Source: a virus. From it: DNA of 34,641 nt. Under the pieces are notes generated by a model that saw nothing but the letters and a program-made list of their open reading frames with translations, was not told the origin of the DNA and ran no database searches. Location of the stretch: IMG/VR virus record IMGVR_UViG_3300033004_000005, positions 1-34,641 of that record. One strand, 5' to 3'. The position numbers and the translations under genes are program-made. Shown piece after piece: positions 12,819-34,566 of the stretch (position 1 is the first letter of the stretch; each line of letters begins with the position of its first letter).

Positions 12819-13397
12819 CTACGCGCGATTTGCGTAGGCTCGCTGATTGGCGAACTGAGCATTACGCAGCATGGCGATATCGCGGGTGCGCAGGCGCTTG
12901 GGTAGGTCGTCTTTGGATGAACTGCTGGCTCTTAAGGGGTCGGTGATGACGAGCGAACCGTCCTGGCGGCACATCCAATTACCATCGTGGAGATCGTCGG
13001 CCATAGGGAATTGTGTTTGCAATTCCTCGATGAAGGCTTTGATTTTCAGGGCTTCCGGCGATCTTGTGCCGGAGTAAAGGCGAAACAAAGCTTGCTTTCG
13101 CAAGTCTCTGGCCTCTTCAGTAAGCGGGTAGAGACGTTCCATGCTTGCGGCGTAGAAGCTGCGATGGTCCTTTTCGATGAAGTGGAACGAGTGAACTTTA
13201 GGTGCGATGGTGCCTGCGTAGCCCATTTTGGTGGCCCAGAAGATGTATTTAGGCCAGTCATCGCATGATCGGCAGACTTTGATTACGCGGTCGCTCCCGG
13301 CTGGCGCGAATACGTCCGAGTAGAGGCCCGAGCCAAGTTCCTGGAACTTATGTTTCCTGAGGAAACTCAGGAGCTTATCCGACGAAATGGTTGCCAT
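12819..13397 (-). CDS. Mini protein-kinase-fold protein
   Basis: 192 residues, shorter than usual kinases (~260). Visible kinase-like marks: glycine-rich loop LGSGLYSDVF (21-30), the beta-3 Lys in RVIKV (K40), a hinge-like MERL (86-89), a catalytic-loop match ADDLHDGN (133-140) that keeps the Asp (D135) and Asn (N140) of HRDxxxxN, and ITDP (151-154) in place of DFG. It may phosphorylate a host or phage protein or a small molecule early in infection; a kinase-like non-catalytic role is also possible. ATG 13397 follows acacggagatg. Confidence 0.65.
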   Translation of the reverse strand: MATISSDKLLSFLRKHKFQELGSGLYSDVFAPAGSDRVIKVCRSCDDWPKYIFWATKMGYAGTIAPKVHSFHFIEKDHRSFYAASMERLYPLTEEARDLRKQALFRLYSGTRSPEALKIKAFIEELQTQFPMADDLHDGNWMCRQDGSLVITDPLRASSSSKDDLPKRLRTRDIAMLRNAQFANQRAYANRA

Positions 13398-16428: not shown

Positions 16429-16667
16429 TGAAAAAGCCCCTCGGCCTCAAGAAAGCTATGGACCTGATGCGGCTGCCGGGAACTCGGCTGGTCAAGATGT
16501 TCACCCACGGCAGTCCTGAAGGCTTTGCCCACTACGTCATCCCTGGCGGATATGTCGAGCCAGATACGGCCGACAAGATCAAGGCCAGGGCAGATGTGAC
16601 CGCCTCCAAGGATGGCCTGTTCCCGAACTCGGACCAGACCTGGAGAATCGCAAGAGAGGGAGAATGA
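16428..16667 (+). CDS. Conserved small phage protein
   Basis: 79 residues from ATG 16428, overlapping the upstream stop (TGATG), with agggagggg before it. MKKPLGLKKAMDLMRLPGTR, then LVKMFTHGSPEGFAHYVIPG, YVEPDTADKIKARAD, and DGLFPNSDQTWRI. The combination RLPGTRLV.M.TH and DGLFP...QTWR is familiar from alphaproteobacterial phages, unassigned. GTG 16425 is an alternative start. Confidence 0.65.
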   Translation: MKKPLGLKKAMDLMRLPGTRLVKMFTHGSPEGFAHYVIPGGYVEPDTADKIKARADVTASKDGLFPNSDQTWRIAREGE

Positions 16668-17206
16668 GAGAAACACCAACGATTCTGGACGCTGGCCACC
16701 AGCACACGATCTATGGCCTCGGTAATCTCGCCCAGGGTAACGTCGTCCAAGGAACCGCCGTCGCCATGCCATTCGCCGGCTTAGCTCAGCAAGGCAATCT
16801 AGGGAATCAGTTCAAGGCCGGTGCGGCAACAGATTGTTCCGCTGCTTACGCAGCGGCTCTCAGAATGGCAAAAGATTCCGAGATGTTTGCCAGCTATCCC
16901 GGTTTGATCAAATCGCAGAAGAAGGAGAGCCAAGTGACTCGTAGACTCGTACAGGTATTCATTGCCGATCCGAATGAGAATGTTCCATTGGAGGATTCTC
17001 TTCTCTATTCTGGCGACCAGAAGCTTACCGATGCGACCGATCAGGAACTGTTCTTCGAGATCGACATGCGAACGATTCTGGCCGATCACAATAAGAAGCG
17101 TGTGACCTTCAAGGTGAAGAATCATAGCCTTGATCGAGATGTCTTTCTGGAGCCTGCCAAGATCAGGGACCTTAAGATGGTCGTCGTGACCGTCGCAGGA
17201 TTCTAA
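16664..17206 (+). CDS. Hypothetical phage protein
   Basis: 180 residues. N-terminal ~80 residues are Gly/Ala/Gln-rich (GLGNLAQGNVVQGTAV, GLAQQGNLGNQF); C-terminal ~90 are a folded beta-rich domain (VTRRLVQVFIADPNENVPLE, DQELFFEIDMRTIL, KRVTFKVKNHSLDRDVFLEP, KMVVVTVAG). ATG 16664 overlaps the previous stop as ATGA; the nearest purine-rich site is only 2-3 bases away, so a downstream start near MAKDSEMF is possible. Function unknown. Confidence 0.6.
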   Translation: MRETPTILDAGHQHTIYGLGNLAQGNVVQGTAVAMPFAGLAQQGNLGNQFKAGAATDCSAAYAAALRMAKDSEMFASYPGLIKSQKKESQVTRRLVQVFIADPNENVPLEDSLLYSGDQKLTDATDQELFFEIDMRTILADHNKKRVTFKVKNHSLDRDVFLEPAKIRDLKMVVVTVAGF

Positions 17207-17427: not shown

Positions 17428-17916
17428 ATGGTCTCGCTTTACAAACGTGCCAACGCGCGCCAGAATCGTGTCCTCAAGATCGTCGAGGGAGCGGTCAAGA
17501 ACGCGGCCGACCACCATCCCGAGTTCAACTATACGCCCCGCTTGGCTCGATCCATTGCCAAGCGTGCGGCAGGTACACTGACCGCCCAGTGGCGGGATGT
17601 GTTGGCGATATCGATGATATCGTCAGACGGGCTAGGCCAGACACCCGCGCATCTGGATAGCCGCCCGGAGTCTCATTGGAGCCAGAATCCGGGAGCGAGA
17701 GGTGGAGATATTTTGGGCTCTCCATCTCGCCATCAGGGTGGGGCTCAGGGTATCAAGCCCCACCCTGTCTTGCGCAGGATCATCAAGGAGCTTTCTCTCA
17801 AGGTCGGGGAGTACAAGCGCCGAGGGCTTCTGTCGCAGAATCTCGATCACATCAAGGCGGAAGGATTGATCGAGGCCCTGCGCATCATTGATCGTCTAAT
17901 GAAGAATCAGAAATAA
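17428..17916 (+). CDS. Hypothetical basic phage protein
   Basis: 162 residues from ATG 17428, four bases after the previous stop. Helical N-terminus (YKRANARQNRVLKIVEGAVK), RLARSIAKRAAGTLTAQWRD, then a Gly/Ser/Pro-rich linker (~65-110) and a second helical domain (PHPVLRRIIKELSLKVGEYK, GLIEALRIIDRLMKN). Function unknown. Its end overlaps the end of the convergent sugar operon by ten bases. Confidence 0.55.
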   Translation: MVSLYKRANARQNRVLKIVEGAVKNAADHHPEFNYTPRLARSIAKRAAGTLTAQWRDVLAISMISSDGLGQTPAHLDSRPESHWSQNPGARGGDILGSPSRHQGGAQGIKPHPVLRRIIKELSLKVGEYKRRGLLSQNLDHIKAEGLIEALRIIDRLMKNQK

Positions 17917-18155
17917 TAGAGTGATGCCGCAATTGAGGCCAGAACCGGATGCCTCTTCAGGAAGTCCCTGGTTGCCAGAATATAGCCCTTCCCGGTCGGC
18001 TTGCCGTATATCTTCCAGTACTGATACTCATGCAGGCATATCTGGCTGGGCTCATACAGGCTGACAGTCCAATCATCCTCCTTGAGCCACTCCTGAAGAA
18101 GCTGAGCGCGAACCTCAACCTGAATTTGATACCGTGAGGGGAACAGTTCCCTCAT
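17907..18155 (-). CDS. Last gene of the sugar operon, unknown
   Basis: 82 residues: MRELFPSRYQIQVEVRAQLL, EWLKEDDWTVSLYEPSQICL, HEYQYWKIYGKPTGKGYILA, then a hydrophobic tail (PVLASIAASLYYF). ATG 18155 overlaps the stop of the Cys-rich gene (ATGA). No family recognised; it may have nothing to do with sugar metabolism. Confidence 0.55.
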   Translation of the reverse strand: MRELFPSRYQIQVEVRAQLLQEWLKEDDWTVSLYEPSQICLHEYQYWKIYGKPTGKGYILATRDFLKRHPVLASIAASLYYF

Positions 18156-18310
18156 TTACGCTCCCAGAGCTTGCACCACATATCAGCTTCAATGCGCCCC
18201 TCGACCTTGGTGCATGAATCGGTCTTGGGTCGGAAGTGCCGACAGTTCCCGCAGTGGGAAGCGACATGTCCCTTGGAATACCCGACAGAGACCTTGCTCT
18301 CCTTCTTCAT
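18152..18310 (-). CDS. 52-residue Cys-rich (CxxC) phage protein
   Basis: HCGNCRHFRPKTDSCTKVEG, then I.ADMWCKLWERK. Four Cys in the order CGNC, SC, WC fit a common small phage family (HiPIP-like or zinc-binding). ATG 18310 overlaps the NeuB-like gene's stop (ATGA), so it is translated with the sugar operon. Function unknown. Confidence 0.65.
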   Translation of the reverse strand: MKKESKVSVGYSKGHVASHCGNCRHFRPKTDSCTKVEGRIEADMWCKLWERK

Positions 18311-19311
18311 GGTATCCTGTCCCCTCGATAGTAATTCTTCTTGGCCTTTTGCCCTATCAAGCGCGGCAGCAGTTTCGGGGCTCCGCCATATCCAGGCCGG
18401 ATTGATCGTACATTCTCATGCGAGAATTCCTCTCCCGCCTCGATATCCCTGACCACATAGAGCGACCGTCTTAGCTGACGGCCGCTTGTCTCCAGCGGCC
18501 TCTCCTTCATGGCCTCATGTGTCTGCCTGACCGCTACCGCCATGGCAGAGAACTCGCTGGGTGTCAGGGAGAATTGATCATCCTCCGTCTTGGGACCATT
18601 CTCTAGTTTAAGATGCTTCTCGATGATGACGGCTCCCAGGGCAGTTGCAGCAATCGGAATGGCATGACCGAGCGTATGATCCGAGATGCCGATGGGGTGC
18701 TTGAACACCAGCAGTTGGTCCAGGGCAGAGATTCTCCCCAGATTGGCGTGCTCTATCGTCCCTGGATACTCCGAGGTGCAATGCAGGAAGGCCGTCTTTA
18801 CGTCTCGTGCTGCCTCCTCGGCGTCTAGGATTTCTCGGTCCGAGGCGAGTCCCGTAGAGATGATAAGAGGCTTCCCTGTCCTGGCGGTATACGAGATGAG
18901 GGGGGTATCCACCACCTCAAAGGAAGCAATCTTGTACGCGGGACAGCCGAGGTGTTCGAGTAGGTCAACGCTAGTGCGGTCGAAGATAGAAGAAAAGATC
19001 GGTATGCCTTCCTCCTGAGCGAAGCGATAAAGCTCGCGATGCCATCCCAGCGGGGTGTGGGCCTTTCCGTAGAGTTCATAGAGGCTTCTCCCTTGCCACA
19101 AGCCGCTCTGGACGATGAAGTCGGGCCGCTTGATGTCGAGCGTAATGGTATCAGGTTCGTAGCACTGTGTCTTGACGGCATCGGCACCGGCTCTCTTGGC
19201 CGCAGAGATCAGCCTCTTGGCCCGCTCAAGGGAGCCGCCATGATTGCCGCTGATCTCGGCAATCAGATAGGGCGGCTGACTGTGGTCGATCTTGCGTCCG
19301 GCGATATCCAC
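18307..19311 (-). CDS. NeuB/PseI-type nonulosonic acid synthase
   Basis: 334 residues, usual size ~340. It condenses phosphoenolpyruvate with a six-carbon N-acetylated sugar to give a nine-carbon acid (Neu5Ac, legionaminic or pseudaminic acid). TIM-barrel part: YLIAEISGNHGGSLERA (15-31), AGADAVKTQCY, KAHTPLGWHRELY, PIFSSIFDRTSVDLLE, CPAYKIASFEVVDTPLI, KPLIISTGLA, PIGISDHTLGHAIP, AVIIEKHL. C-terminal ~275-334 is the antifreeze-like SAF domain (RRSLYVVRDIEAGE, NYYRGD). The AEISGNHGG and AHTPLGWH forms resemble PseI more than bacterial NeuB. Start is GTG 19311 with ggaggagcga upstream; it overlaps the aminotransferase end by 49 bases. Confidence 0.9.
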   Translation of the reverse strand: MDIAGRKIDHSQPPYLIAEISGNHGGSLERAKRLISAAKRAGADAVKTQCYEPDTITLDIKRPDFIVQSGLWQGRSLYELYGKAHTPLGWHRELYRFAQEEGIPIFSSIFDRTSVDLLEHLGCPAYKIASFEVVDTPLISYTARTGKPLIISTGLASDREILDAEEAARDVKTAFLHCTSEYPGTIEHANLGRISALDQLLVFKHPIGISDHTLGHAIPIAATALGAVIIEKHLKLENGPKTEDDQFSLTPSEFSAMAVAVRQTHEAMKERPLETSGRQLRRSLYVVRDIEAGEEFSHENVRSIRPGYGGAPKLLPRLIGQKAKKNYYRGDRIP

Positions 19312-20438
19312 TCGCTCCTCCTGTCGATGGCGTGAGCCACATACTCCACCACTTCCCGCATTCGCCTGATATGATGTGCCTTGGGATCGTGGTCGCAGAC
19401 ATCGAATGTAATGATCTTCTCGTGCTCGATTCTATATGCTTCCGGGCATTTGTCTGGCGACTTGAATACCTCTGTCAGGAGCTTTGAGTATCCCTCACGC
19501 ATCGGAAAGCCGCGTAGATTGAGTTCATGGACCAACTTTCGTCGTCGCGCCGGATTATCCACCAACGCAGACCATACATAGTATGAGTGGGTGCAATCGA
19601 TGTCCGTGACAGACGCTGCCATCCATGGGATGTTCTTTGTCATGTCGTTTAGGATGTTGCCCAGCCGCCTCCGCCCCTTGATGATCTCTGGCCCTCTGGC
19701 AAGCTGCGCACATGCCATGGCCGCAGTTGGCTCAGTCATTCTGAGGTTGAGGCCGGTATGACCAGATGGGGCCAACTCTCCATGGTTGATGGCCATTCTA
19801 AGTGCCCGACTGTATCCTTCATCCATAGTGCAGACCACTCCGCCTTCTCCAACCTGGAGGTGCTTGTGGACATTAAGACTGAAGACTCCCATGTGACCGA
19901 TGGTCCCGGCATAATGCTTTCCCTCCTTGGCATAGATCGACTGGGCATTGTCCTCGATCATGACGACCTTCATGTCGTCACACCAGCAGCGTAACACGGC
20001 AAGATAAGCCGGGTGTCCGAACAGGTTGGTGACGATCAATGCCTTCGGTGGCGGTCTCAGCGAGAGGAGCTTTGGGTCGAGCGAATAACGGATCGGCTCA
20101 ATGTCAATAAATCTGACATGTGCGCCAAGTACTTTGGCGACGGCCGCTGTCGCCGACATAGAGTAGGGCGTTGTCCAGACTTCATCGCCTGGACCAATAC
20201 CTGCTGCCATGGAAGCAGCGAGGAGCCCGCTTGTAGCTGAGTTACAAGGAATTGCATATCTGCATCCGAAGACATCTGTCCACTCCGTTTCTAGTCTGTC
20301 TGTCCAATATCCGCCTCGTGGCGTCGATCCCCCCAGGTAGCCGGAGAGCGGTCGCTTGAGTGCCTGGAGGACATTGGTTCTCTCTCTGTGTCCAATCGTA
20401 TTGAATGGAGGTAATGCTCCTAGAGTCGGCCCGTCCAC
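19263..20438 (-). CDS. DegT/DnrJ/EryC1/StrS sugar aminotransferase (PseC/SpsC-like)
   Basis: 391 residues from GTG 20438, preceded by gggagg; a longer frame exists but would overlap the previous gene far more. PLP enzyme: IEDNAQS (161-167, Asp for the pyridine N), VFSLNVHKHLQVGEGG (185-200) with Lys192 as the Schiff-base residue, N-terminal YLGGSTPRGGYW.DRLE and the cofactor contact NSATSGLLAA. It probably transfers an amino group from glutamate to the 4-keto sugar made by the SDR product, as PseC or SpsC. The N-terminus ('DGPTLGALPPF...IG..ER..VLQALK') is as in pathway homologues. Residues near the C-terminus are less conserved. Confidence 0.85.
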   Translation of the reverse strand: MDGPTLGALPPFNTIGHRERTNVLQALKRPLSGYLGGSTPRGGYWTDRLETEWTDVFGCRYAIPCNSATSGLLAASMAAGIGPGDEVWTTPYSMSATAAVAKVLGAHVRFIDIEPIRYSLDPKLLSLRPPPKALIVTNLFGHPAYLAVLRCWCDDMKVVMIEDNAQSIYAKEGKHYAGTIGHMGVFSLNVHKHLQVGEGGVVCTMDEGYSRALRMAINHGELAPSGHTGLNLRMTEPTAAMACAQLARGPEIIKGRRRLGNILNDMTKNIPWMAASVTDIDCTHSYYVWSALVDNPARRRKLVHELNLRGFPMREGYSKLLTEVFKSPDKCPEAYRIEHEKIITFDVCDHDPKAHHIRRMREVVEYVAHAIDRRSEWISPDARSTTVSRPI

Positions 20439-20602
20439 TTGGAGACCTCCCTGTCGTTTTTGGTAATCTTCTTCATGATCTTGCGTGCTTCCTTCGGGGC
20501 ATGGCGGAAGGCCAGTCGTAGTAAATCCATCCAAAGCCTATTGTTGCTCTGGCGAATGCCGGCAATGTATGAGATGATCTCGTCGGGATCATGTTCCCTC
20601 AT
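20420..20602 (-). CDS. 60-residue accessory protein in the sugar operon
   Basis: MREHDPDEIISYIAGIRQSN, NRLWMDLLRLAFRHAPKEAR, KIMKKITKNDREVSKWTGRL. A helical small protein; the core R..NN..WMDL.RLAF...P..A is, in my memory, seen in small proteins near cell-surface sugar genes in Alphaproteobacteria. It may help enzyme assembly or be a subunit. ATG 20602 has a strong ggaggaag site inside the end of the SDR gene; its end overlaps the DegT start by 19 bases. Confidence 0.6.
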   Translation of the reverse strand: MREHDPDEIISYIAGIRQSNNRLWMDLLRLAFRHAPKEARKIMKKITKNDREVSKWTGRL

Positions 20603-21449
20603 GTAACGCTTCCTCCAGTTCCTTCATCGTCATACGTCTTGCTCTATCGCTGGTATTGTCGAAGTCCATTCCTTCGTGCATCTTCTCCCATGCGGGCAGG
20701 CCGGTGATCTTCATCTTGACCTTCATCGCGTCGGCAAGATCGGCCAGTCGGTAGGCGGGCAGCCTGGGGATATGAACCTTGTTGAGATTGGGCGAGGCTA
20801 TGGCCCGCAATACCAGATCGACAGCTTCGTCCATGCGCATGAAGAATCGAGTGCATTCTGGATGCGTAACAGGAACTTCTGTTGCGCCTTTAGCAATAAG
20901 GGCCTCCCAAGTTGGGACGACTGAGCCTGTTGATCGCCAGACATTACCGTAGCGGCACACGGCGAACTTAGGACCATTCCAGCCAGTAGTATTGTTGGCA
21001 GCCAGGAAGATCGATTCCGCCATGGCTTTGCTGAAGCCATAAGGGCTGACCGGATGAAACGCCTTGTCGCTGGAGAGGGCGACGACCCTCTTGACCCCGG
21101 CATCCTGTGCAGCTTCAATGACATTGATCGCTCCATCAACATTGGTCTTGACCATCTCGACCGGATTGTAGTGACCTACCTCGATCCTCTTAAGAGCCGC
21201 TGCATGAACGACGATATCGATCCCTTCCATAGCCCTGCGCAGCCTGTCTCTATCGCGCACATCACCGATGAAGAATCGAAGCATGCAGTCAGGGTCTATG
21301 GGGGCCAGTTCTTGGTGCATGAGGAACTGACGGAATTCCCCCCTCGAAAATAGAGCGATCCGATCTGCGGCAAAATCACGCTCCGTGAGCAGTCGTCGTG
21401 TGAAGGCGGTGCCGAATGCCCCAGTAGCCCCTGTTATTAGGAACTTCAC
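20589..21449 (-). CDS. Extended SDR nucleotide-sugar dehydratase (PseB/FlaA1-like)
   Basis: 286 residues, at the short end of the PseB/CapD family. Rossmann TGATGAFG (7-14), GDVRDRDRL, VVHAAALK, catalytic SSDKA (126-130) and YGFSK (Y137, K141), RYGNV, TRFFMRMDEAV. In the family, UDP-GlcNAc is converted by 4,6-dehydration (with C5 inversion in PseB) to a 4-keto-6-deoxy sugar, the first step to pseudaminic acid. Start is GTG 21449, overlapping the upstream stop as GTGA, with gagggc as ribosome site. Whether it inverts C5 cannot be told from sequence alone. Confidence 0.85.
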   Translation of the reverse strand: MKFLITGATGAFGTAFTRRLLTERDFAADRIALFSRGEFRQFLMHQELAPIDPDCMLRFFIGDVRDRDRLRRAMEGIDIVVHAAALKRIEVGHYNPVEMVKTNVDGAINVIEAAQDAGVKRVVALSSDKAFHPVSPYGFSKAMAESIFLAANNTTGWNGPKFAVCRYGNVWRSTGSVVPTWEALIAKGATEVPVTHPECTRFFMRMDEAVDLVLRAIASPNLNKVHIPRLPAYRLADLADAMKVKMKITGLPAWEKMHEGMDFDNTSDRARRMTMKELEEALHEGT

Positions 21450-23452
21450 GACGTAGCCCTCAGCGGCGCTGCTGTAACAACGGAATTTCCGATACGGGAG
21501 TCTATATCCTCAAGCTCCAGTGCATCCTTAATGACGCCAAGGGTCTTCTCATATGCGATTCTGATCCGGTCGATCTCCGGCTTCTTGATTGCATAGGACA
21601 TATTGTGACTGTTGATGATCAGTACGCCGTTCTGGATCATCTCCATCATGAATAATGTTCTGATCTTGTCGTCTCTGAACCAAAGCATCCGGCGTGATGG
21701 ATGGCCAGAGAGCTTGATATGATCCTCAAGATCAGCATTGGCGATCAATGTCTCCACTCGGTCTGATAAATACCATCCATTGTCCTGGAGGTAGTTGCAC
21801 ACGTTCTCTCGCTCCATCTTGTTGATGGTTGCTATGGCTGCCGCAATGGAGAGTGTCTCCCCGAAGAAGGTTCCGGAGTAGAAGATGTTGTTTGGCGGCT
21901 CGCACAACTTCATGATGTTACGTCTGCCAACCAGAGCAGAGATCGGCATGCCGTTACCCATAGCCTTGCCGAAGCAGGCAAGGTCCGGCGTTACACCGAA
22001 GAACTTCTGTGCCCCGCCCAGGCTGTAGCGAAAGCCAGTGATGATCTCGTCGAAGATCAGGACGATTCCGCGCTCAGTGCAGTACTCACGTAAAAACTTG
22101 AGATATTCCGGGTTGTCGTTTGGCTCGACAATAAACGCGGCGATCTTATCATATCCAGGTCCCCAATCCTGGGTCCCATAGGGAACTCGATGGGTGAGGC
22201 GACGCACGCTCTCTGGAATTCCCTTGTAACGATCAGTCGGCCCCATGGACCAATCAGCCCATCCATGATATCCTGATAGGAGTACATGATCTCTCCCAGT
22301 GTATGCCCTGGCCAGCCTGATGGCGGCGGTTGTTACATCGGTCCCGGTCTTGCCGAACTTGACCATCTCGGCACATGGGATGTGCTTGACTAGCAGTTCG
22401 CTTAGCTCGACTTCCCTGTCGCTTGCCAAGCTGAAGCTGATACCGCGATTCAACTGATCCCTAATTGCCGCATCAACGTCGGGATCGCGGTAGCCAAGGA
22501 CCACAGGCAGAACAGCGTTAACAAGGTCCACGTAATCATTCCCGTCCACATCATAAATATGGCTACCATCTGCATGCGTGACGTAGAGAGGAGCGCGTCC
22601 TCCAGGGAACTGAATATGTGACTTGCTGAAGGTTTGGCTTCCGAATGGAATGGTAGAGAGAGCTTTTGATAGTAGAGTATCCGACCTTCTGAATGTTCGC
22701 CTTGGTTGCTCTTCTTGGGAAAGAACAGAATAGAACCTTTCGTTTCGTGTCCATCGCTCATTGATCTTCCTCAGTTCTGGTTCCTTATCAAGGATGCGAA
22801 GTATACTTGTATAGTTTGCTGGGGCGCCAAGCCTGGAGGCGACTGCTTTGCAGAACTCATAGTCATCCTTGGTATCAAGGACCCATCGCTCCTTATGCAG
22901 TCCCGGTAGCGGGCAGGTAAGATTTGCAGCCTTGAATCGATGACGGTTCCGGCTCATGTATTGGCAGACACAATCACGGTCAGTTAGTCTGGTGGCTTCT
23001 AGATGGGAGACATGCAGAGCCTCCCAGGTAAAGCACTCAACATCCAATCCGTCCGGGTAGGTGGGCGGATCAACATTGCAGGCGTAGTCTGCCCCTGTCA
23101 TTTCCCGCAACTTAACGACCTCAGTGATGATTTGAGGATCAAGGAAAGGACAGTCTCCAGTAAGTCTAAGAATTACATCAGCCTTGTGTACCGTGGCACA
23201 CTGATGGAATCGCTCAAGTACATCCGTCTCGCTGCCGCGCCAGTAAGTGATCTGTTCTTGTTCGCACCACTCGGCAATTGGATTGTCTTGATCTAGTACA
23301 GATGTGGCGATAATAACATCATCGACGCCGATTGCTTCATGAGCAGCAATATATACCCACCACAGCACAGGGTATCCGCCCAGGTCCTTGAGAACCTTGC
23401 CGGGGAATCTCGTACTGCCCATACGGGCTTGAATGATGGCGATAGTTTTCAC
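21446..23452 (-). CDS. Fusion: SpsF-like cytidylyltransferase + class III (GSA-type) aminotransferase
   Basis: 668 residues in two domains. Domain 1 (~1-225) is a CMP-sugar synthetase of SpsF/CTP_transf_3 type: IIQARMGSTRFPGKVL (6-21) and RLTGDCPFLDP (96-106). Domain 2 (~255-660) is a PLP enzyme like glutamate-1-semialdehyde aminomutase: DVDGNDYVDLVNAVLP, FGKTGTDVTTAAIRLARAYTG, SGYHGWADW, FDEIITGFRY (D468), and FGKAMGNGMP with Lys496. Domain 1 should activate the sugar acid with CTP. Domain 2 should transaminate or isomerise a further amino position. Such fusions occur in bacterial glycan clusters. Start is GTG 23452 with ggaagg, overlapping the upstream stop as GTGA. Confidence 0.85.
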   Translation of the reverse strand: MKTIAIIQARMGSTRFPGKVLKDLGGYPVLWWVYIAAHEAIGVDDVIIATSVLDQDNPIAEWCEQEQITYWRGSETDVLERFHQCATVHKADVILRLTGDCPFLDPQIITEVVKLREMTGADYACNVDPPTYPDGLDVECFTWEALHVSHLEATRLTDRDCVCQYMSRNRHRFKAANLTCPLPGLHKERWVLDTKDDYEFCKAVASRLGAPANYTSILRILDKEPELRKINERWTRNERFYSVLSQEEQPRRTFRRSDTLLSKALSTIPFGSQTFSKSHIQFPGGRAPLYVTHADGSHIYDVDGNDYVDLVNAVLPVVLGYRDPDVDAAIRDQLNRGISFSLASDREVELSELLVKHIPCAEMVKFGKTGTDVTTAAIRLARAYTGRDHVLLSGYHGWADWSMGPTDRYKGIPESVRRLTHRVPYGTQDWGPGYDKIAAFIVEPNDNPEYLKFLREYCTERGIVLIFDEIITGFRYSLGGAQKFFGVTPDLACFGKAMGNGMPISALVGRRNIMKLCEPPNNIFYSGTFFGETLSIAAAIATINKMERENVCNYLQDNGWYLSDRVETLIANADLEDHIKLSGHPSRRMLWFRDDKIRTLFMMEMIQNGVLIINSHNMSYAIKKPEIDRIRIAYEKTLGVIKDALELEDIDSRIGNSVVTAAPLRATS

Positions 23453-23718
23453 TTCTTGCCTTCCAAAGTCTGCGCTAAGAACAGGAGTCGTCCGATATCT
23501 TTCATAAGATCATGGAAAACGCCGGCATCATCTATGTTGTGATGTGAGGCGATCTTGCGACAGTAGAATCGGATAAGCTCAAGTCCCTCGTCCTTGACGA
23601 GGACATTCTTGAACCACAGCTTCTGCATGCCTTGATCGAGCTTAAGCTGAGACTCGTAGTCGTTGATGATCTCTTTGATCAGCCTGTCATGCCTGCCTGC
23701 CTTCTCACCTCTAGGCAT
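23449..23718 (-). CDS. 89-residue accessory protein of the sugar operon
   Basis: MPRGEKAGRHDRLIKEIIND then YESQLKLDQGMQKLWFKNVL, LELIRFYCRKIASHHNIDDA and FHDLMKDIGRLLFLAQTLEG. Helical. ATG 23718 has aaggg; the longer frame to 23754 is less likely. It overlaps the oxidoreductase end by 40 bases. Function unknown; phage small-gene style rather than sugar enzyme. Confidence 0.55.
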   Translation of the reverse strand: MPRGEKAGRHDRLIKEIINDYESQLKLDQGMQKLWFKNVLVKDEGLELIRFYCRKIASHHNIDDAGVFHDLMKDIGRLLFLAQTLEGKK

Positions 23719-24548
23719 ATTTCGAGTACCCTTAGTGCTTCCGCGCCTGTGCATCCTGGAGTCTCCTTGCCTTCGATTCTATCGATGAATGCTTTCATTT
23801 CGTCTATGTAGTCCTGATCGTATGATCCCCGACAGTGAAACCAGTCAGCCTGCTCCTTATCTGGCGTAAGGAGAAAAAGATTCCTGCTTGGCAGCGTACA
23901 GGTAATTCGTCCCGTCTCGCCCTGAATTGTGAAGTGTCTCTGCTCCGGCTTGGTGATATAGTCGAGATGGATCGTTGATCGGCACCCATTCTCATGGGTT
24001 ATAAGGATATCCGCCATGTCATCGCATCCGTCGATGATGCGGACAGATGACGCCTCCAAATGTCCAGGTCCGAGAAGATGAAGGGCGAGATCGATCTCAT
24101 GGCTCCAGTTGAGGACAACTCCATCGCGCAGGTAGGCTGGCTTGTCGTTGAACTGGCCGCATGTGAAGTTTGCCCACAGAGGCTTGCCGATTCTGCCGGC
24201 ATTGATCCATTCAATAGTCTTGAGGACGCAGCCGTGGAATCGCAGATTGTATCCAATCATGCATGGCAGAAGGTAAGAAAATCTCTCTTTATCTGAGAGA
24301 GGCTTCTCAATGAAGGCAGGCTTTCCTGCCTCTCCCGCCATTACGGCGTGCTGGTAGTGTAGTCTGGTTGGGCTGGCTATTACAAATGCATCCACTTCTC
24401 TCTTAAAGTCTCCACCATCTACTCCGATCTCAAATGGGACTTCTAAGTCTGGTCTGATATCTGCCCCATAGACGCTATGACCAAGCGCCACTAGATTCTT
24501 GGCATGTCTCATCCCTATGCTGCCAAGCCCGATGACGCCGATCTTCAT
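23679..24548 (-). CDS. Gfo/Idh/MocA NAD(P)-dependent oxidoreductase
   Basis: 289 residues, slightly short for the family (~340). N-terminal Rossmann GVIGLGSIGMRHAKNL (4-19), VIASPTRLHY, EKPL (81-84), then a C-terminal alpha/beta domain with the usual NWSHEIDLALHLLG (H150, D153). It would oxidise or reduce a hydroxyl of a sugar nucleotide or free sugar. Not part of the standard pseudaminic or legionaminic route, so with the class III aminotransferase it may introduce an additional amino group (oxidise then transaminate). ATG 24548 overlaps the upstream stop (ATGA). Confidence 0.85.
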   Translation of the reverse strand: MKIGVIGLGSIGMRHAKNLVALGHSVYGADIRPDLEVPFEIGVDGGDFKREVDAFVIASPTRLHYQHAVMAGEAGKPAFIEKPLSDKERFSYLLPCMIGYNLRFHGCVLKTIEWINAGRIGKPLWANFTCGQFNDKPAYLRDGVVLNWSHEIDLALHLLGPGHLEASSVRIIDGCDDMADILITHENGCRSTIHLDYITKPEQRHFTIQGETGRITCTLPSRNLFLLTPDKEQADWFHCRGSYDQDYIDEMKAFIDRIEGKETPGCTGAEALRVLEICLEVRRQAGMTG

Positions 24549-24862
24549 GTGCGCTTCCTTGGCTTAGAATCAGCAGCTTGCTTTCCTCGCCAATGAAGCT
24601 GGCGCCTTATTACCCGCATGTCCTTGCCGGCTGGCTTGGGGGCTAGGAGGGCTTCATTGATCCGATCAGAAATGAGATGGTACATCTTATTCTCCATCTC
24701 GTATCTGGAGCACAGGTGATGTCGAACAATGAGGACGATCTGGTCATGTAAATGGTCTACCCTGATATCGGCATCCAGGACTCTCTTCCCTCTGTTGGCC
24801 GACCATATGCCGGGCAATAAGAGATCGCGAAAGCCGGCCAGAGAATTAGGCATTGTTGCCAT
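24545..24862 (-). CDS. 105-residue protein with a capsid-like N-terminus
   Basis: Start ATG 24862 overlaps the GNAT stop (TAATG) with ggaaga upstream. It opens MATMPNSLAGFRDLLLPGIW, then RVDHLHDQIVLIVRHHLCSR, EMENKMYHLISDRINEAL and a basic tail. Residues 11-20 (FRDLLLPGIW) closely match residues 8-17 of the major capsid protein (IRDLLLPGLW). That may be chance or a shared capsid-interaction element. Function unknown. Confidence 0.55.
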   Translation of the reverse strand: MATMPNSLAGFRDLLLPGIWSANRGKRVLDADIRVDHLHDQIVLIVRHHLCSRYEMENKMYHLISDRINEALLAPKPAGKDMRVIRRQLHWRGKQAADSKPRKRT

Positions 24863-25356
24863 TAGCGGAATCTTCCGAATAGAACGAGATCGGAGTAGCT
24901 GCCCTCGAAAGAGAAGTGAGACAGGCGGCGCCCCTCTTCCTGCATTCCGTACTTGCGGAAGAGCTTGATCATGGGGGCATTCGCCGCCATGCAACCGCCT
25001 TCGATACGGCGCATGTTCAAGGTATCAAACAAAATTTCGCAGAAGGTGGACCACGCTGAGTATCCATGGCCCTTCCCCTGGAAGTCAGGGCCGATCAGGA
25101 TACCAACGTCGGCCACTCTGTTGTGCGTGTCGATGTAGGCGGAGACGGTTCCAATCAACTCTTTATCCAGATGTATTTCCCTCAGGATATTGTCTCGATG
25201 TTCAATGAAGGATCGGATGTACTGAAGCTGGGTATTGGTTGTGTGTGTCTTGTGTCGCTGTTCCGAGTATTGGGTTACCGTCTTATTATTGAGCCAATAG
25301 GCTTGCGTCTTCAGTGCGCCAATGTCGATGCGCGGCAACTCCAGGGTAATGCTCAT
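24862..25356 (-). CDS. GNAT N-acetyltransferase (PseH/SpsD-like role)
   Basis: 164 residues. Acetyl-CoA motif QGKGHG (93-98) follows a beta strand (VGILIGPDF), preceded by ELIGTVSAYID; later RRIEGGCMAANAPMIKLFRK and a C-terminal HFSFEGSYSDLVLFGRF are of the RimJ/RimL-like type. By position it would N-acetylate the amino sugar intermediate, the PseH or SpsD step. Overlaps the next gene upstream as ATGA. A protein target is possible, but the context favours the sugar. Confidence 0.8.
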   Translation of the reverse strand: MSITLELPRIDIGALKTQAYWLNNKTVTQYSEQRHKTHTTNTQLQYIRSFIEHRDNILREIHLDKELIGTVSAYIDTHNRVADVGILIGPDFQGKGHGYSAWSTFCEILFDTLNMRRIEGGCMAANAPMIKLFRKYGMQEEGRRLSHFSFEGSYSDLVLFGRFR

Positions 25357-25526
25357 TTCTTCTTAGCCTTTGGCTTGTTCGGCTTGATGTGGGTGGCAAG
25401 CTTAAGGGCGACCTCAAAGAGGTTCAGGATCGCCTCGGATTCCTGGCTGTATCCGCCGAGCTTGCGTCTGCGCTCTACTGTGTCAGATAGCCAGAGTCGT
25501 AGGGCCTCAAGTTCTCTTTTGTCCAC
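25353..25526 (-). CDS. 57-residue helical protein
   Basis: Starts with GTG 25526 after gagagg: VDKRELEALRLWLSDTVERR, RKLGGYSQESEAILNLFEVA, LKLATHIKPNKPKAKKK. Helical with a basic tail. Coupled to the GNAT gene (ATGA) and lies inside the end of the gene upstream. Function unknown. Confidence 0.55.
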   Translation of the reverse strand: MDKRELEALRLWLSDTVERRRKLGGYSQESEAILNLFEVALKLATHIKPNKPKAKKK

Positions 25527-25795
25527 GATTCCTCTCTTATGGCTCCTGTTGCGATATACTCAAACCCCGGTCCGATTCCGTTGTGCCAGTCCACCATGCC
25601 ATCCTTGGTAGGAAGTCCGAGGCGGCGCTGGGTTAGATGCACCCGGCCCTTTCTCGCCATTTGCCCAGCCATGACGGCAGCCTTGATGGCTCCCGGATTC
25701 CCATTCCTCTCCATGTCGAGATGGCCCACGAAGTAGACGACCTTCTGCCCCGGTCGGATGGTGAGCAATGCTTCCATTACTGTTTCGTTCTGCAT
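25475..25795 (-). CDS. First gene of the sugar operon, conserved-looking phage protein
   Basis: 106 residues: MEALLTIRPGQKVVYFVGHL, DMERNGNPGAIKAAVMAGQM, GRVHLTQRRLGLPTKDG, then FEYIATGAIRE. The pattern V(Y/F)..GHL..(E/D)R, then G.V.L.QRR is familiar from alphaproteobacterial phages, unassigned. ATG 25795 with a weak gaga ribosome site. Divergent from the terminase gene. Confidence 0.6.
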   Translation of the reverse strand: MQNETVMEALLTIRPGQKVVYFVGHLDMERNGNPGAIKAAVMAGQMARKGRVHLTQRRLGLPTKDGMVDWHNGIGPGFEYIATGAIREESWTKENLRPYDSGYLTQ

Positions 25796-25891: not shown

Positions 25892-27544
25892 TTGGGGGCG
25901 AGGGAAGCAGTCCTGAAGGCGGCAGAGCGCATCATGCTGCTCAAGGACCGCGAGACTTACGAAACCAGCCTCTTAGACTTTGCCGATTACGTCTGGCCGG
26001 TGGTCGAGCCGGCGATTCCCTTTGTCAAGGGATGGGTGATCGAAGCGATAGCCGATCATCTTGAGGCGGTCGAGGCTGGGGATATCCGCCGGTTGCTCAT
26101 CAATGTTCCGCCGGGTTTCACCAAGTCTCTCCTGACAGATGTGTTCTTTCCGGCGTGGCTATGGGGGCCGAGGAATCGTCCTCATATGCGGTTCTTGTGC
26201 GCGGCCTATTCAGAGCACCTGACGGTTCGCGACAACATGCGTTGCCGGTCGATCATCATCTCAGACCGCTACCAGCGGCTCTGGAGCAGTCGCTTCAAGG
26301 TCTCTACCGACCAGTTCACCAAGATCAAGTTCGCCAATGATAAAACGGGGTGGAAGCTGGCGACTTCGGTTGGTGGCATCGGTACGGGAGAGCGGGCGGA
26401 TATCGTTATCGTAGACGACCCGAATAACCCCATGGAGATGGAGTCTGAGCCCGTCCGCAATACTACCAAGATGTGGTTCACCGAAGTCCTTCCCGACCGC
26501 CTCAATAATCAGGAGACCAGCGCGATCATTGTGATCCAGCAGCGTACCCATGACGACGACGTAAGTGGTATCGCGATCTCCAGGGAGATGGGATACGAGC
26601 ATCTAATGATTCCAATGGAGCATGATAGCTCTAGGCATTGTATTACCTCTATTGGGTGGGAAGACCCAAGAGTCGATGATGGGGAACTGGCATGGCCGGA
26701 GAGGTTCCCTCAGTACGTCGTCAAGGAACTTGAGCGAGACAAGGGTCCTTACGCCTATGCATCCCAGTATCAGCAGTCGCCGGCCCCCAGAGGCGGCGGC
26801 ATTCTCAAGGAGGCATACTGGCAGTTATGGGATAAGCAGGACAGTAACGGCAAGGAGTATTTCCCGCCCTTCCAGTTCGTCCTGGCCTCTCTGGACACGG
26901 CCTATACCGAGAAGCAGGAGAACGATGCCTCGGCTCTGACGATCTGGGGCGTGTTCCGCGAGCGGCCAGTGATCGATGTGGGGCCGGAGGCGCTCTGGCA
27001 GCCCAGAGATACACCTACGATTGTAAGAAACAATCTAGGCAACCCTAAGATCATGCTGATCTATGCGTGGCAGGGTCGCTATGAATTTCACGAACTGATT
27101 CAGAAGGTAATCGAGACATGCATTCCAGGTCAGATTCCTGGGGGCGGGCCATCTTTTCCTGTGGATAAGTTATTAATTGAAGCAAAGGCCAGTGGCTTGT
27201 CGGTCGGCCAGGAGCTTCATCGCATGTTCCGATCTACTGGCAAGATTGGAATTGATCTCATCAATCCAACAGCTTACGGGGATAAGGTGGCTAGGGTCCA
27301 CGCTATCGAGCATCTCCTGGCAGATGGGATGGTGTATGCTCCCGACCGAGCGTTCGCAGATATGGTGATTGACCAATGCTCCAGATTCCCGCGCGGCTCT
27401 CGGGATGACCTTGTGGATACTGTCTCCATGGCGCTTCGTTATTTGCGCGACAGCGGCTTCGCTTTGAAGAACTCCGAGTATGCTATCGAAGATGAGCCGA
27501 GTTTAAGCTATAGTCAAAACAACGTTGCCCTTTATCCGGTCTAA
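25892..27544 (+). CDS. Terminase large subunit (ATPase and nuclease)
   Basis: 550 residues. It powers DNA packaging into the procapsid and cuts the concatemer. N-terminal ATPase: INVPPGFTKSLL (70-81) is a deviant Walker A, IVIVDDPN (171-178) Walker B. The C-terminal RNase H-like nuclease has VLASLDTAYT.KQENDASAL (about 330), LIEAKASG and a closing DDLVDTVSMALRYL with acidic residues. The start is TTG 25892, supported by aggagag six bases upstream; an ATG start is not available in frame. First gene of the rightward late operon. Confidence 0.9.
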   Translation: MGAREAVLKAAERIMLLKDRETYETSLLDFADYVWPVVEPAIPFVKGWVIEAIADHLEAVEAGDIRRLLINVPPGFTKSLLTDVFFPAWLWGPRNRPHMRFLCAAYSEHLTVRDNMRCRSIIISDRYQRLWSSRFKVSTDQFTKIKFANDKTGWKLATSVGGIGTGERADIVIVDDPNNPMEMESEPVRNTTKMWFTEVLPDRLNNQETSAIIVIQQRTHDDDVSGIAISREMGYEHLMIPMEHDSSRHCITSIGWEDPRVDDGELAWPERFPQYVVKELERDKGPYAYASQYQQSPAPRGGGILKEAYWQLWDKQDSNGKEYFPPFQFVLASLDTAYTEKQENDASALTIWGVFRERPVIDVGPEALWQPRDTPTIVRNNLGNPKIMLIYAWQGRYEFHELIQKVIETCIPGQIPGGGPSFPVDKLLIEAKASGLSVGQELHRMFRSTGKIGIDLINPTAYGDKVARVHAIEHLLADGMVYAPDRAFADMVIDQCSRFPRGSRDDLVDTVSMALRYLRDSGFALKNSEYAIEDEPSLSYSQNNVALYPV

Positions 27545-27546
27545 AC

Positions 27547-30054
27547 ATGGCACCTCCAGGCAGCAGACCGCTGCAAGACCCGTATCCTCGCCCGACCAGC
27601 CCGCATCTGCGGGTGATCCAGGGCGGGCTTCAGGATGGGCCAAGCTCGATGGAGGATGGGGCGCTCAAGATCGAGCACCCTGATGGCTCCGTTACCATCA
27701 ACTTCAATCCTCAAGCACCTGAAGATGCTGACGTAAACAGCAAGAAGTTCGATGCCAATCTGGCCAAGAGCCTTGACGATGACGCTCTTTGCAGCATGGC
27801 GACGGACCTTCTGGAGGGCATCCAGCGAGACGAGCAGTCCAGGCGGGAATGGCTTGAGACCCGCGCCAGAGGCATCGAGCTTCTCGGCCTTAAGCTGGAG
27901 AGGCCAAGATCGAATGCCGGCGATTCCTCTGCCCCCTTGGAAGGGATGTCGGTAGTTCGCCACCCGTTGTTGCTTGATGCGACTGTTTCATTTCAGGCGA
28001 CGGCGCGCGGCGAACTGCTGCCAGCCTCCGGCCCGGTCAAGGTGCGTAACGATACACCGCCTCAGCCAATGGTTCCTCCGCAGCAGACCAATGCTCAGCA
28101 GCAACTTGCTGAGAGCCTGGAAGCATTGGATGAGTTAGGGCAAGCACTCGAAAAGGATATGAATCATTACTTGACTGCGATTGCGACGGAATACGTTCCA
28201 GATACTGACAGAATGTTGTTCTATATTGGATTTGGCGGAGATGGGTTCAAGAAAGTCTATAATTGTCCATTGCGTCAACGTCCGGTTTCCGAGAGCGTGG
28301 ACCCGGAAGACTTGATCGTTTCCAATGCCGCGACCGATCTCAATAACTGCGGCCGTGTTACGCACAAGATCAAGATGCGCAAGTCGGTACTTAAGCGCAT
28401 GCAGATACTGGGGGCGTACCGAGATATCGACCTTTCCCCGCCGCAGGTTTCGTCACCGACCGTGGTCGATCAGAAGAAGGAGGAGATTGACGGTCGCAAG
28501 AGCGTCGATCAGCGTCCGGAGGACAGGGACTACGAAATCTACGAGTGTTACTGCGAGCTTGATATCGATCAGTTCGCGCCGCCCAAGTTCAAGGGCAAGG
28601 GTCTTCCGCTCCCATACAGGGTGACGCTTGAGAAAGAATCGCAGAAGATTCTGGATATCCGGAGGAACTGGAAGGAAGATGACAGGCAGTGTCGCGCAAG
28701 ACCATTCTTCGTCCAGTTTCCATTTATACGCGGCCTTGGATTCTATGGGCTGGGCTTTATTCACCTACTCGGGAATACCGCCAATGCTCTCACTGGTGCG
28801 TGGCGGCTCATGCTCGACAATGGAATGTTTTCTAACTTTCCTGGATTCCTGTTCGCCAAGGGCGCGGGGAGACAGAACACCAATCAATTCCGTGTAGCTC
28901 CTGGCTCCGGTGTCCCGATTGATGTGGGGGCGCAGCAGAGCATCAAGGATATGGTTATGCCGCTTCCTTACAAGGAGGCGAGCCCCAGCTTTGCTGCCTT
29001 CATCCAGCATGTGGAAGAGGTTGGGCAAAAGCTGGCTTCTACGGCCAACATGAATGTTGGAGAAGGGAAGCAAGATGCGCCTGTGGGAACCACGCTTGCC
29101 CTTATTGAACAGGCCACTAAGGTCCTTGATTCAGCGCATAAACGCCTTCATGCCGCTCAGGCCGAAGAGTTCAAGCTCCTCAAGGAGCGATTCCGGGAAG
29201 ACCCAGAAGCCTTCTGGCGGCACAATCGAAAGCCGGCCATCCAGTGGCAGAAGGACCAATTCATCGAGGCACTCAGCCACCATGAGTTGGTTCCGGTAGC
29301 CGACCCGAACAATCCGACCTCTCTGCATCGCATTGCCAAGGCTATGGCGATCAAAGAGCTTCAGAAGGGGAATCCTAACCTATACGACCCGGTTGCGGTC
29401 GATATGCGGATCATGCGGATTGTGGATATCGACCCGCAGGGGCTGTTCCGGGCACAGCCGGCTCAGCCGCCGCCCGACCCAAGGCTCATTGCGATTCAGC
29501 AGAAGGCCAAGGCGGAAGAGGCCAAGGCACAGCTTGCTCAGCTTGAGCTTCAGCTTAAGTCCGCACAGAACCAGTCTACGGCACAGAATCAGGCGGAAGA
29601 CCGGGCTTCCCGCGAACGCATCGAACAGCTTAAGATCGCCATCGAAACGCTAAGATTGGAGCAGGAAAAGATCATCCACGCTCATGACATCAATCGGGAG
29701 AATACTTCGGCTCATCATGAGTTAATTCGCGACCATCTTTCGCATCAGCAAGAAATGGCGCATAATGCTATGGAGCGGCAGCAGGATTTGGCTCACTCGG
29801 CTATGGAGGCTCAGCATGAGGCTCATGGCGGGGTGGTCAAAACTGCGATTGAGTTGGAGACTGAGCGCCGCAAGCACGAGGATCAGTCGCGCCGGGACGA
29901 AGAGAATCACCGCCGCAAAGTGGCCCGCGAGGAAGAAGAGCATCAAATGAAGATGCAGCATGAGCGGGAGATGCATCAGGCAAGGCTGGAAGCTGCCAAG
30001 CAGATGGCTAGGGCTAAGCCTAAGAAGGAGAAGGCCGGTGGAAAGAAAGAGTAA
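27547..30054 (+). CDS. Portal protein with long C-terminal coiled coil
   Basis: 835 residues, in the range of large portals. It forms the dodecameric DNA gate at one capsid vertex. An acidic N-terminal ~140, then the central portal domain: DVNSKKFDANLA, VRHPLLLDATVSFQATARGE, FYIGFGGDGFKKVY, FVQFPFIRGLGFYGLGFIHL, TGAWRLMLDNG, SSTANMNVGEG-type stretch, GTTLALIEQATKVLDSAHKR. The C-terminal ~190 is Gln/Glu/His-rich coiled coil (KAQLAQLELQLKSAQ, RDEENHRRKVAREE) with a Lys-rich end. Starts two bases after the terminase stop; the ribosome site is weak. Family recognised from pattern, without a search. Confidence 0.85.
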   Translation: MAPPGSRPLQDPYPRPTSPHLRVIQGGLQDGPSSMEDGALKIEHPDGSVTINFNPQAPEDADVNSKKFDANLAKSLDDDALCSMATDLLEGIQRDEQSRREWLETRARGIELLGLKLERPRSNAGDSSAPLEGMSVVRHPLLLDATVSFQATARGELLPASGPVKVRNDTPPQPMVPPQQTNAQQQLAESLEALDELGQALEKDMNHYLTAIATEYVPDTDRMLFYIGFGGDGFKKVYNCPLRQRPVSESVDPEDLIVSNAATDLNNCGRVTHKIKMRKSVLKRMQILGAYRDIDLSPPQVSSPTVVDQKKEEIDGRKSVDQRPEDRDYEIYECYCELDIDQFAPPKFKGKGLPLPYRVTLEKESQKILDIRRNWKEDDRQCRARPFFVQFPFIRGLGFYGLGFIHLLGNTANALTGAWRLMLDNGMFSNFPGFLFAKGAGRQNTNQFRVAPGSGVPIDVGAQQSIKDMVMPLPYKEASPSFAAFIQHVEEVGQKLASTANMNVGEGKQDAPVGTTLALIEQATKVLDSAHKRLHAAQAEEFKLLKERFREDPEAFWRHNRKPAIQWQKDQFIEALSHHELVPVADPNNPTSLHRIAKAMAIKELQKGNPNLYDPVAVDMRIMRIVDIDPQGLFRAQPAQPPPDPRLIAIQQKAKAEEAKAQLAQLELQLKSAQNQSTAQNQAEDRASRERIEQLKIAIETLRLEQEKIIHAHDINRENTSAHHELIRDHLSHQQEMAHNAMERQQDLAHSAMEAQHEAHGGVVKTAIELETERRKHEDQSRRDEENHRRKVAREEEEHQMKMQHEREMHQARLEAAKQMARAKPKKEKAGGKKE

Positions 30055-33645: not shown

Positions 33646-34566
33646 ATGCCCGTCGCACTGAGTCAGATTCGCGATCTTCTTCTGCCGGGCCTGTGGGGCA
33701 TTTCCGGCAAGTATCCCATGATCGAGCGTCAGTGGCCGAAAATCTTCCGGCAGACCGACTCGAACATGGCCCTGGAGCGCAGGGCAGCGATGCGCTATCT
33801 CGGTCTTGCTCAGTTGAAGCAAGAGGGTGGCGTTACCGCATTTGATAACAACGCCGGACAGCGTTACGTCTACAACGCTGAACATTTCGAGATCGGCCTT
33901 GGGTATGCCATCACCCGCAAGGCCATCGACGACAACCTGTATAAGTCAGAATTCGGCCCCTCGAACGATGGCCTGATGGAATCGTTCAAGGAAACCGAGG
34001 AAATCTACGCTGCCAACGTCTTCAACAACGGCAACGTCTATAACGCGGCGATTGGCGGCGATGGTGTCTCTCTCTTCAGCACGGCGCATCCTATCGATCC
34101 GCCCAACGCCAACATCGCCAACCAGCCAAGTCCGGATGTTGATCTGAATGAGACAACGCTTCTAAATGCTCTCATCACGATCCGCACCAATTGGCGCGAT
34201 AACGCCGGCCTGAAGATTCACGCCAGGGGCCGCAAGGTCCTGATCCCAACCGGGCTTGAGCCGGTTGCGCTTCGTCTGTTCCGTTCCGAACTTCGCCCTG
34301 GCACGTCAACCAACGACGTGAATGCGATTCAGCATATGAATGAATCGCTCAAGGAAGGCTTCATGGTGTGGGACTATCTCACATCACAGTTCGCTTGGTT
34401 CATCCTGACCAACCACGACGGCCTGATCTTCTTCCATCGCAAGCCGTTCGAGATGGACATGAGCGTGGAATTCACGACTGATAACCTTCTGGTTAAGGGC
34501 TATCAGCGATATGTTCCGACCTACTACGACTGGCGCTCCTCATGGGGCACCTTCCCGACCTCGTAA
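33646..34566 (+). CDS. Major capsid protein (HK97-type fold likely)
   Basis: 306 residues. N-terminus PVALSQIRDLLLPGLWGISG, then MIERQWPKIFRQTDSNMALE, E-loop-like RRAAMRYLGLAQL, a long domain with HFEIGLGYAITRKAIDDNLY, the turn SLFSTAHPIDP, NAGLKIHARGRKVLIPTGLE, and a C-terminal LVKGYQRYVPTYYDWRSSWG. It matches phage major head proteins (Mu gpT-like/HK97-like group) as I recall them. It lies after the decoration protein. ATG 33646 has aagga upstream. The product forms the icosahedral head. Confidence 0.85.
   Translation: MPVALSQIRDLLLPGLWGISGKYPMIERQWPKIFRQTDSNMALERRAAMRYLGLAQLKQEGGVTAFDNNAGQRYVYNAEHFEIGLGYAITRKAIDDNLYKSEFGPSNDGLMESFKETEEIYAANVFNNGNVYNAAIGGDGVSLFSTAHPIDPPNANIANQPSPDVDLNETTLLNALITIRTNWRDNAGLKIHARGRKVLIPTGLEPVALRLFRSELRPGTSTNDVNAIQHMNESLKEGFMVWDYLTSQFAWFILTNHDGLIFFHRKPFEMDMSVEFTTDNLLVKGYQRYVPTYYDWRSSWGTFPTS

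Follow-up and report, generated by a model that had tools for sequence, protein, structure and literature searches.

The bacterial pseudaminic acid (Pse) pathway of Campylobacter and Helicobacter (PseB-C-H-G-I-F) comprises a dehydratase, a DegT-family aminotransferase, a GNAT acetyltransferase, the PseG hydrolase, a PseI-type synthase that condenses the sugar with phosphoenolpyruvate (PEP), and a CMP transferase. Phages with single surface-modifying genes are already known. Phage-encoded changes of a host surface sugar have been described for Kapi1 (PMC8787464) and for atr29/atr30 of Acinetobacter baumannii (PMC6586298). The latter study proposed that phage-borne O-acetyltransferases modify the host nonulosonic acid (NulO) of the Acinetobacter capsule, a precedent for phages changing a sugar of this class, and Pse derivatives occur in rhizobial surface polysaccharides (PMC4270759, PMC7816849). 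Here, we analyzed an operon of NulO enzymes carried by a 34,641-nucleotide metagenomic phage contig, about half a genome (IMG/VR IMGVR_UViG_3300033004_000005, positions 1 to 34,641; hereafter, the window). The operon has five enzyme classes in common with the bacterial Pse pathway (dehydratase, DegT, GNAT, PseI-type synthase, and CMP transferase) but lacks PseG, fuses its SpsF-like transferase to a class III aminotransferase, and adds a Gfo/Idh/MocA oxidoreductase. Whereas the Kapi1 and atr29/atr30 genes act on an existing polymer, the window encodes a near-complete precursor pathway, with no transferase detected. We propose that this operon serves its whole phage clade as a module that, in infected Alphaproteobacteria, would make a modified Pse-type NulO in CMP-activated form for use at the host surface, a proposal to which we give about an even chance of being correct.

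Enzymes of the NulO operon

The operon (17907 to 25795) is a single leftward run directly divergent from the large terminase subunit gene terL (25892 to 27544, plus strand; phrog_38, 1e-83). An earlier note, made from the letters of the sequence, had placed six sugar genes in one leftward operon next to the large terminase gene. This layout was confirmed, and Pfam profile searches recovered all six genes at their coordinates and in the predicted families, the best E value of each lying between about 1e-10 and 1e-75. The synthase (18307 to 19311, minus strand), which contains NeuB and SAF domains, scored 393.4 bits with the PseI equivalog model TIGR03586, above the cutoff of 340.25, and its nearest solved structure is a pseudaminic acid synthase (PDB 8h2c, E value of 8e-82). 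Placement with PseI was a result that the earlier note had named as support for its proposal. Residues K47, K127, H212, E231, H233, and R305 were invariant in 18 of 18 phages; here and below, we take catalytic positions from alignment to solved homologues and from general knowledge of the families.

The remaining enzymes are all on the minus strand, and their active sites were also intact, with none of the degradation that the earlier note had named as a reason to discard its proposal. The UDP-N-acetylhexosamine (UDP-HexNAc) 4,6-dehydratase, a PseB/FlaA1-like short-chain dehydrogenase/reductase (SDR; 20589 to 21449; PF02719 [Polysacc_synt_2], 4e-75), is structurally closest to FlaA1 (PDB 2gn4, 9e-64), and D128, K129, Y137, and K141, aligned with FlaA1, were invariant in 22 of 22 phages. 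The DegT/DnrJ/EryC1 aminotransferase (19263 to 20438; PF01041, 3e-48), which occupies a PseC/LegC-like position, has WbpE as its nearest solved structure. Its GTG start at 20438 agrees with relatives, and the lysine binding pyridoxal phosphate (PLP), K224 in the numbering of the 19263 to 20534 open reading frame (ORF), was kept in 20 of 20 phages. The GNAT N-acetyltransferase in the PseH position (24862 to 25356; PF13302, 3e-14) has spermidine acetyltransferase relatives in the PDB. The fusion protein (21446 to 23452), kept in phages at 54 to 62% identity, joins the SpsF-like cytidylyltransferase (PF02348 [CTP_transf_3], 4e-23; nearest structure, 6oew) to a GSAM-type class III aminotransferase (PF00202 [Aminotran_3], 1e-47; nearest structure, 5i92). 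R10, S13, R15, and K19 of the first domain were invariant in 28 of 28 phages and the lysine of the second in 23 of 23. Finally, the Gfo/Idh/MocA NAD(P)-dependent oxidoreductase (23679 to 24548; PF22725/PF01408) matched the dehydrogenase 3ezy (8e-13) and retained its EKP motif in 36 of 36 phages.

A cassette fixed in a phage clade

A search of IMG/VR with the synthase gave 23 loci, 7 of which (L002 to L007 and L022) contained the same gene set as the window, in the order GNAT, methyltransferases where present, Gfo, cytidylyltransferase/aminotransferase fusion, PseB, a small gene, DegT, and PseI. Six of these seven have terL next to the cassette, encoded on the other strand; the sequence available for L004 includes neither terL nor GNAT. 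We then compared the best 80 of 167 terminase loci, a few of them from the same records as the synthase loci, counting only records that extend 2 kb or more upstream of terL. The cassette stood beside terL in 34 of 34 records whose terminase was at least 51% identical to that of the window and in 0 of 13 below that value. On the terminase tree, its presence corresponds to a single gain on a fully supported branch (SH-aLRT 100, by a quick method; 44 rows with the cassette and 16 without). No NeuB was detected in 17 sister records, which include two of 61.9 kb and 68.0 kb and many fragments. Gene order was near-constant across the 17 loci that we laid out, L055 being rearranged. The cassette thus marks a phage clade and is fixed throughout it.

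Two relatives (G005 and G007, about 75 to 76 kb) carry 127-bp terminal repeats, from which we take them as complete genomes; the cassette makes up 10.7% of G007. Between the window and G007, the cassette persists while most other early genes differ. Its GC content and codon usage match those of the rest of the phage, and in the window it is flanked by profile-matched phage genes for a primosomal protein, a DnaB-type helicase, terminase, portal, and capsid. With just one metagenomic contig behind the window, host contamination or a chimera joining bacterial sugar genes to phage genes had to be considered. The junction recurs, however, across dozens of independent contigs as well as in genomes that have terminal repeats, and GC content and codon usage match. 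For practical purposes this rules out an artifact, to which we give a vanishingly small probability. The earlier claim that the cassette belongs to the phage is accordingly strongly supported by its repeated place and order beside terL and by its composition. The arrangement that the note said would overturn that claim, the same operon at an identical position in host chromosomes with the phage genes absent, was not seen.

Recent capture from a host was rejected, since we found no bacterial cluster with this gene order and the best match to the fusion was 49% identical. Strict codescent of cassette and terminase was rejected as well, the correlation being only partial (Mantel r of 0.25 to 0.60, versus 0.85 for portal and capsid), from which it follows that cassette alleles have probably been exchanged. 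A supported clade of eight cassette phages (100/98) includes the window on the PseI tree, and the cassette phages as a whole did not form one clade, so the tree does not show a single origin of their PseI.

The similar gene order that the earlier note had suggested looking for in phage databases was present in these IMG/VR relatives but not among 50,697 deposited phages. The latter included no carrier of the cassette: they gave only three distant synthase matches, and none aligned with the fusion across 80% of its length. The part of the literature covered by our search likewise described no phage NulO module, so that a near-complete NulO pathway fixed in a phage clade was found in neither source. 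Other IMG/VR phage lineages (L010/L012/L014/L023, L017, L011, and L015) resemble the window in pairing a PseI-type synthase with sugar enzymes next to phage genes but have different phage backbones. Two of them, those of L010 and L017, lack the fusion and carry a WbuX-type amidotransferase and the Pse-associated methylase Pse_Me-ase, which scored over its cutoff in L010 and L017 and has homologues in L012, L014, and L023. The L010 cassette also contains a HisF2/WbuZ-like protein, and L011 has the cytidylyltransferase, aminotransferase, and Gfo genes unfused.

The fusion also occurs in chromosomal clusters, for example in Paramagnetospirillum marisnigri (L105), Agaricicola taiwanensis (L111), and Aeromonas molluscorum (L115), with PseB, DegT, and PseI genes nearby and, in L105, Gfo beside the fusion. 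These clusters differ from the phage cassette in gene order and in a fusion at most 49% identical, and the four genomes examined for PseG (L105, L112, L113, and L115) each had a PseG-family match; in L105, PseI is on the other strand.

Missing steps and the proposed use of the product

The earlier note had counted five of the six pathway steps. The five enzyme classes stood, and the sixth, a PseG/NeuC hydrolase, was looked for and not found: PseG was not detected in 16 cassette phages, nor were PF02350 (Epimerase_2, NeuC type) and PF04101 (Glyco_tran_28_C) in these phages or the window. By comparison, the four fusion-carrying chromosomal genomes examined all gave PseG-family matches, two of them over the cutoff. 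Among glycosyltransferases, GT2, GT4, and MptE-like/MAF families gave nothing above cutoff in the 16 phages, and none was present among the Pfam families listed for most of the remaining proteins of two genomes (25 of 30 families in one scan). The five family searches made beyond PseG for a hidden hydrolase or glycosyltransferase (Epimerase_2, Glyco_tran_28_C, GT2, GT4, and MptE-like/MAF) therefore gave nothing above cutoff. These absences hold at the sensitivity of profiles and for the families searched, which do not cover every glycosyltransferase family. A seroconversion cassette is expected to carry a glycosyltransferase acting on host polymer, and none of the GT2, GT4, MptE-like, or Glyco_tran_28_C type was found. 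With neither PseG/NeuC nor a glycosyltransferase of these families in the phage, the host probably supplies both activities. An integrase, the mark of the temperate lifestyle expected with such a cassette, did not appear among the families listed for two genomes, in which no search was aimed at integrases.

From these genes, we propose the following route. The PseB-like dehydratase would form a 4-keto-6-deoxy UDP-HexNAc, which the DegT enzyme would aminate and the GNAT enzyme acylate, in some relatives together with a formyltransferase. After a host hydrolase had freed the sugar from UDP, PseI would condense it with PEP to a nine-carbon acid. WlbA/WlbE and KdnB/KdnA are examples of oxidoreductase and aminotransferase pairs that introduce an additional amino group. 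On this precedent, the Gfo/Idh/MocA enzyme and the class III aminotransferase probably oxidize and then aminate one further position, although the order of these two steps, like the substrate and the product, is our inference. In most phages, the Gfo gene is the immediate neighbor of the fusion, and chromosomal loci of distant phyla group genes for Gfo, a cytidylyltransferase, and a class III aminotransferase. Methyltransferases would add variant groups in most relatives, and the cytidylyltransferase domain would charge the acid with CMP. Host glycosyltransferases would then place the variant on capsule, lipopolysaccharide, or flagellin, and competing phages and progeny would meet the altered surface. 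Infected cells would most likely display a phage-specified NulO, leading to receptor change or superinfection exclusion. The CMP-activated sugar acid of the earlier note is therefore upheld as far as the enzyme class goes but not as to the exact product, given the missing PseG and the extra aminotransferase/oxidoreductase pair.

The enzymes around the core vary among cassette phages. Most relatives have one or two S-adenosylmethionine-dependent methyltransferases (MTa and MTb), in place of which the window has a 105-amino-acid (aa) ORF (24545 to 24862, minus strand; a gene call with a low coding score and no Pfam match). A formyltransferase is present in L079 and L055, and a second SDR in L036 and L041, that of L036 being an RmlD-like reductase. 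L039 encodes a different NeuB-like synthase (L039:1901-2920) that groups with Dechloromonas and scores below the PseI and NeuB cutoffs, the rest of its cassette being kept, and in L055 the synthase has moved from its usual place. That the core stays constant while its decorations change suggests diversifying selection on the precise structure of the sugar, and the variable acyl and methyl enzymes fit selection for surface diversity.

This variation bears on a rival explanation, in which the phage would boost the host's own sugar, with the same product, and so keep envelope or flagellar synthesis going with an unchanged structure. Alphaproteobacterial chromosomes do hold similar enzyme sets with PseG-family matches. 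However, the decorating enzymes, and even the synthase, differ between phages, and the hydrolase was found in no phage, which would be odd for simple supply; we consider this explanation distinctly unlikely. A specific form of the host-surface proposal would be surface conversion by precursor substitution. The clade would encode no transferase and would let host transferases install its own variant CMP-NulO, and the variable methyl-, formyl-, and acetyltransferases and the exchanged synthases would act as a phage-specific signature against competitors. We advance this only tentatively; the CMP-NulO would perhaps be new, the Gfo enzyme and the class III aminotransferase having supplied it with an additional amino group.

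The main rival of host-surface use is decoration of the virion, in which an unrecognized phage or host transferase would put the CMP-sugar on capsid or tail proteins and so alter adsorption or shield virions. The cassette is fixed in the clade beside the packaging and structural module, two proteins of one genome have Laminin_G_3 lectin-like domains, and a new transferase could be hidden among the many proteins of the complete genomes that have no annotation, all of which speaks for this explanation. Set against it are the lack of any searched glycosyltransferase family above cutoff and the orientation of the operon, which is divergent from the structural genes and opens the early-type transcription unit. 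Promoter and terminator scans did no better than chance. Overall, virion decoration seems to us rather unlikely.

Several results weigh against host-surface use of a Pse-type sugar. The PseB model TIGR03589 gave 301.7 bits (cutoff, 407.75), the PseC model TIGR03588 gave 130.8 (cutoff, 423.5), and the PseH model TIGR03585 gave 28.8 (cutoff, 93.1), which makes a Pse-type product only putative. The legionaminic (Leg) models did no better (LegB, 69 versus a cutoff of 475; LegC, 133 versus 420), and with PseG also missing, membership in a canonical Pse or Leg pathway was rejected. One cassette (L076, in the partial 46-kb record G014) lacks any NeuB-family synthase, which was either lost or relocated. 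The failure to find a transferase counts in the same direction, within the family coverage given above. The proposal is moreover drawn from genes, its hosts being predicted rather than identified, and if all hosts already make NulO, so large a cassette needs a reason beyond supply. The unmet cutoffs, the missing PseG, and the extra aminotransferase and oxidoreductase could also indicate a related product other than a glycan-bound nine-carbon nonulosonate, for example a nucleic acid or small-molecule modification. This we regard as improbable, because the PseI equivalog cutoff was passed, the cytidylyltransferase domain is intact, and genes for PseB, DegT, and PseI lie close to the fusion's chromosomal relatives.

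If the host-surface proposal is correct, remodeling of surface sugar chemistry seems to be central to how the clade infects. Phage control of adsorption through that chemistry becomes testable, phages become linked to a class of surface sugars known from rhizobia, and the cassette provides a short path to nonulosonic acids that may be new.

Predicted hosts and small genes

GcrA is a regulator known from Alphaproteobacteria. Among 16 cassette phages, GcrA scored above the cutoff in 12 and weakly in one more, 13 in all (e.g., G012:C1:32071-32517); as a control, the profile matched Caulobacter and, unexpectedly, Sulfolobus. Its presence in most relatives points to alphaproteobacterial hosts, which we consider probable, and suggests an influence on host cell cycle transcription. 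The named phages with the nearest terminases or capsids mostly infect Alphaproteobacteria, among them Paracoccus, Roseobacter, Caulobacter, and Pelagibacter; the closest of all is an uncultured Manatee Spring phage. PseI proteins of Hyphomicrobiales genomes are up to 55% identical. Related prophages in Alphaproteobacteria did not identify the host, as only distant terminases were found (best, about 37 to 44%). The immune mimicry raised in the earlier note received no support, as the apparent hosts are environmental Alphaproteobacteria. A SU10-type adaptor in G007 suggests a podovirus-like virion. In the window, the portal gene (27547 to 30054; phrog_1216, 4e-31) and the major capsid gene (33646 to 34566; phrog_371, 7e-10; 77 to 90% identity in the cassette clade) follow terL on the plus strand.

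Several small proteins are encoded on the minus strand between or beside the sugar genes. A 60-aa protein with an NNxxWM motif (20420 to 20602) is modeled by AlphaFold2 (AF2) as a hairpin of two helices (pLDDT 93). It belongs to no Pfam family, is retained amid the sugar genes of almost every cassette phage, and also occurs in other NulO phages (L013, L015, L018, and L019), but was not found in the bacterial clusters compared. The first operon gene encodes a 106-aa protein (25475 to 25795), and an 89-aa protein lies inside the operon (23449 to 23718), both being gene calls with no Pfam match; the cassette of L039 also begins with a protein that looks similar to the former. Near the operon start, a 57-aa protein (25353 to 25526) is kept in cassette phages (14 phage homologues aligned). 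Two small ORFs of 82 and 52 aa (17907 to 18310; gene calls) form the distal end, the 52-aa one having a single match, in L004.

The N terminus of the 105-aa ORF (MPNSLAGFRDLLLPGIW) resembles that of the capsid protein (MPVALSQIRDLLLPGLW), and the cassette of L007 contains a YspA/cpYpsA-related gene of the SLOG family (L007:7292-7636). A small protein (RRLVQVFIADPNENVPL...) is encoded outside the cassette in the window (16664 to 17206, plus strand) and inside it in two other phages (L006:1799-2281 and L031:8723-8995), as if it were mobile. Finally, the product of 12819 to 13397 (minus strand) matched the phage protein kinase family phrog_15752 (E value of 2e-13) and is a possible host takeover kinase.

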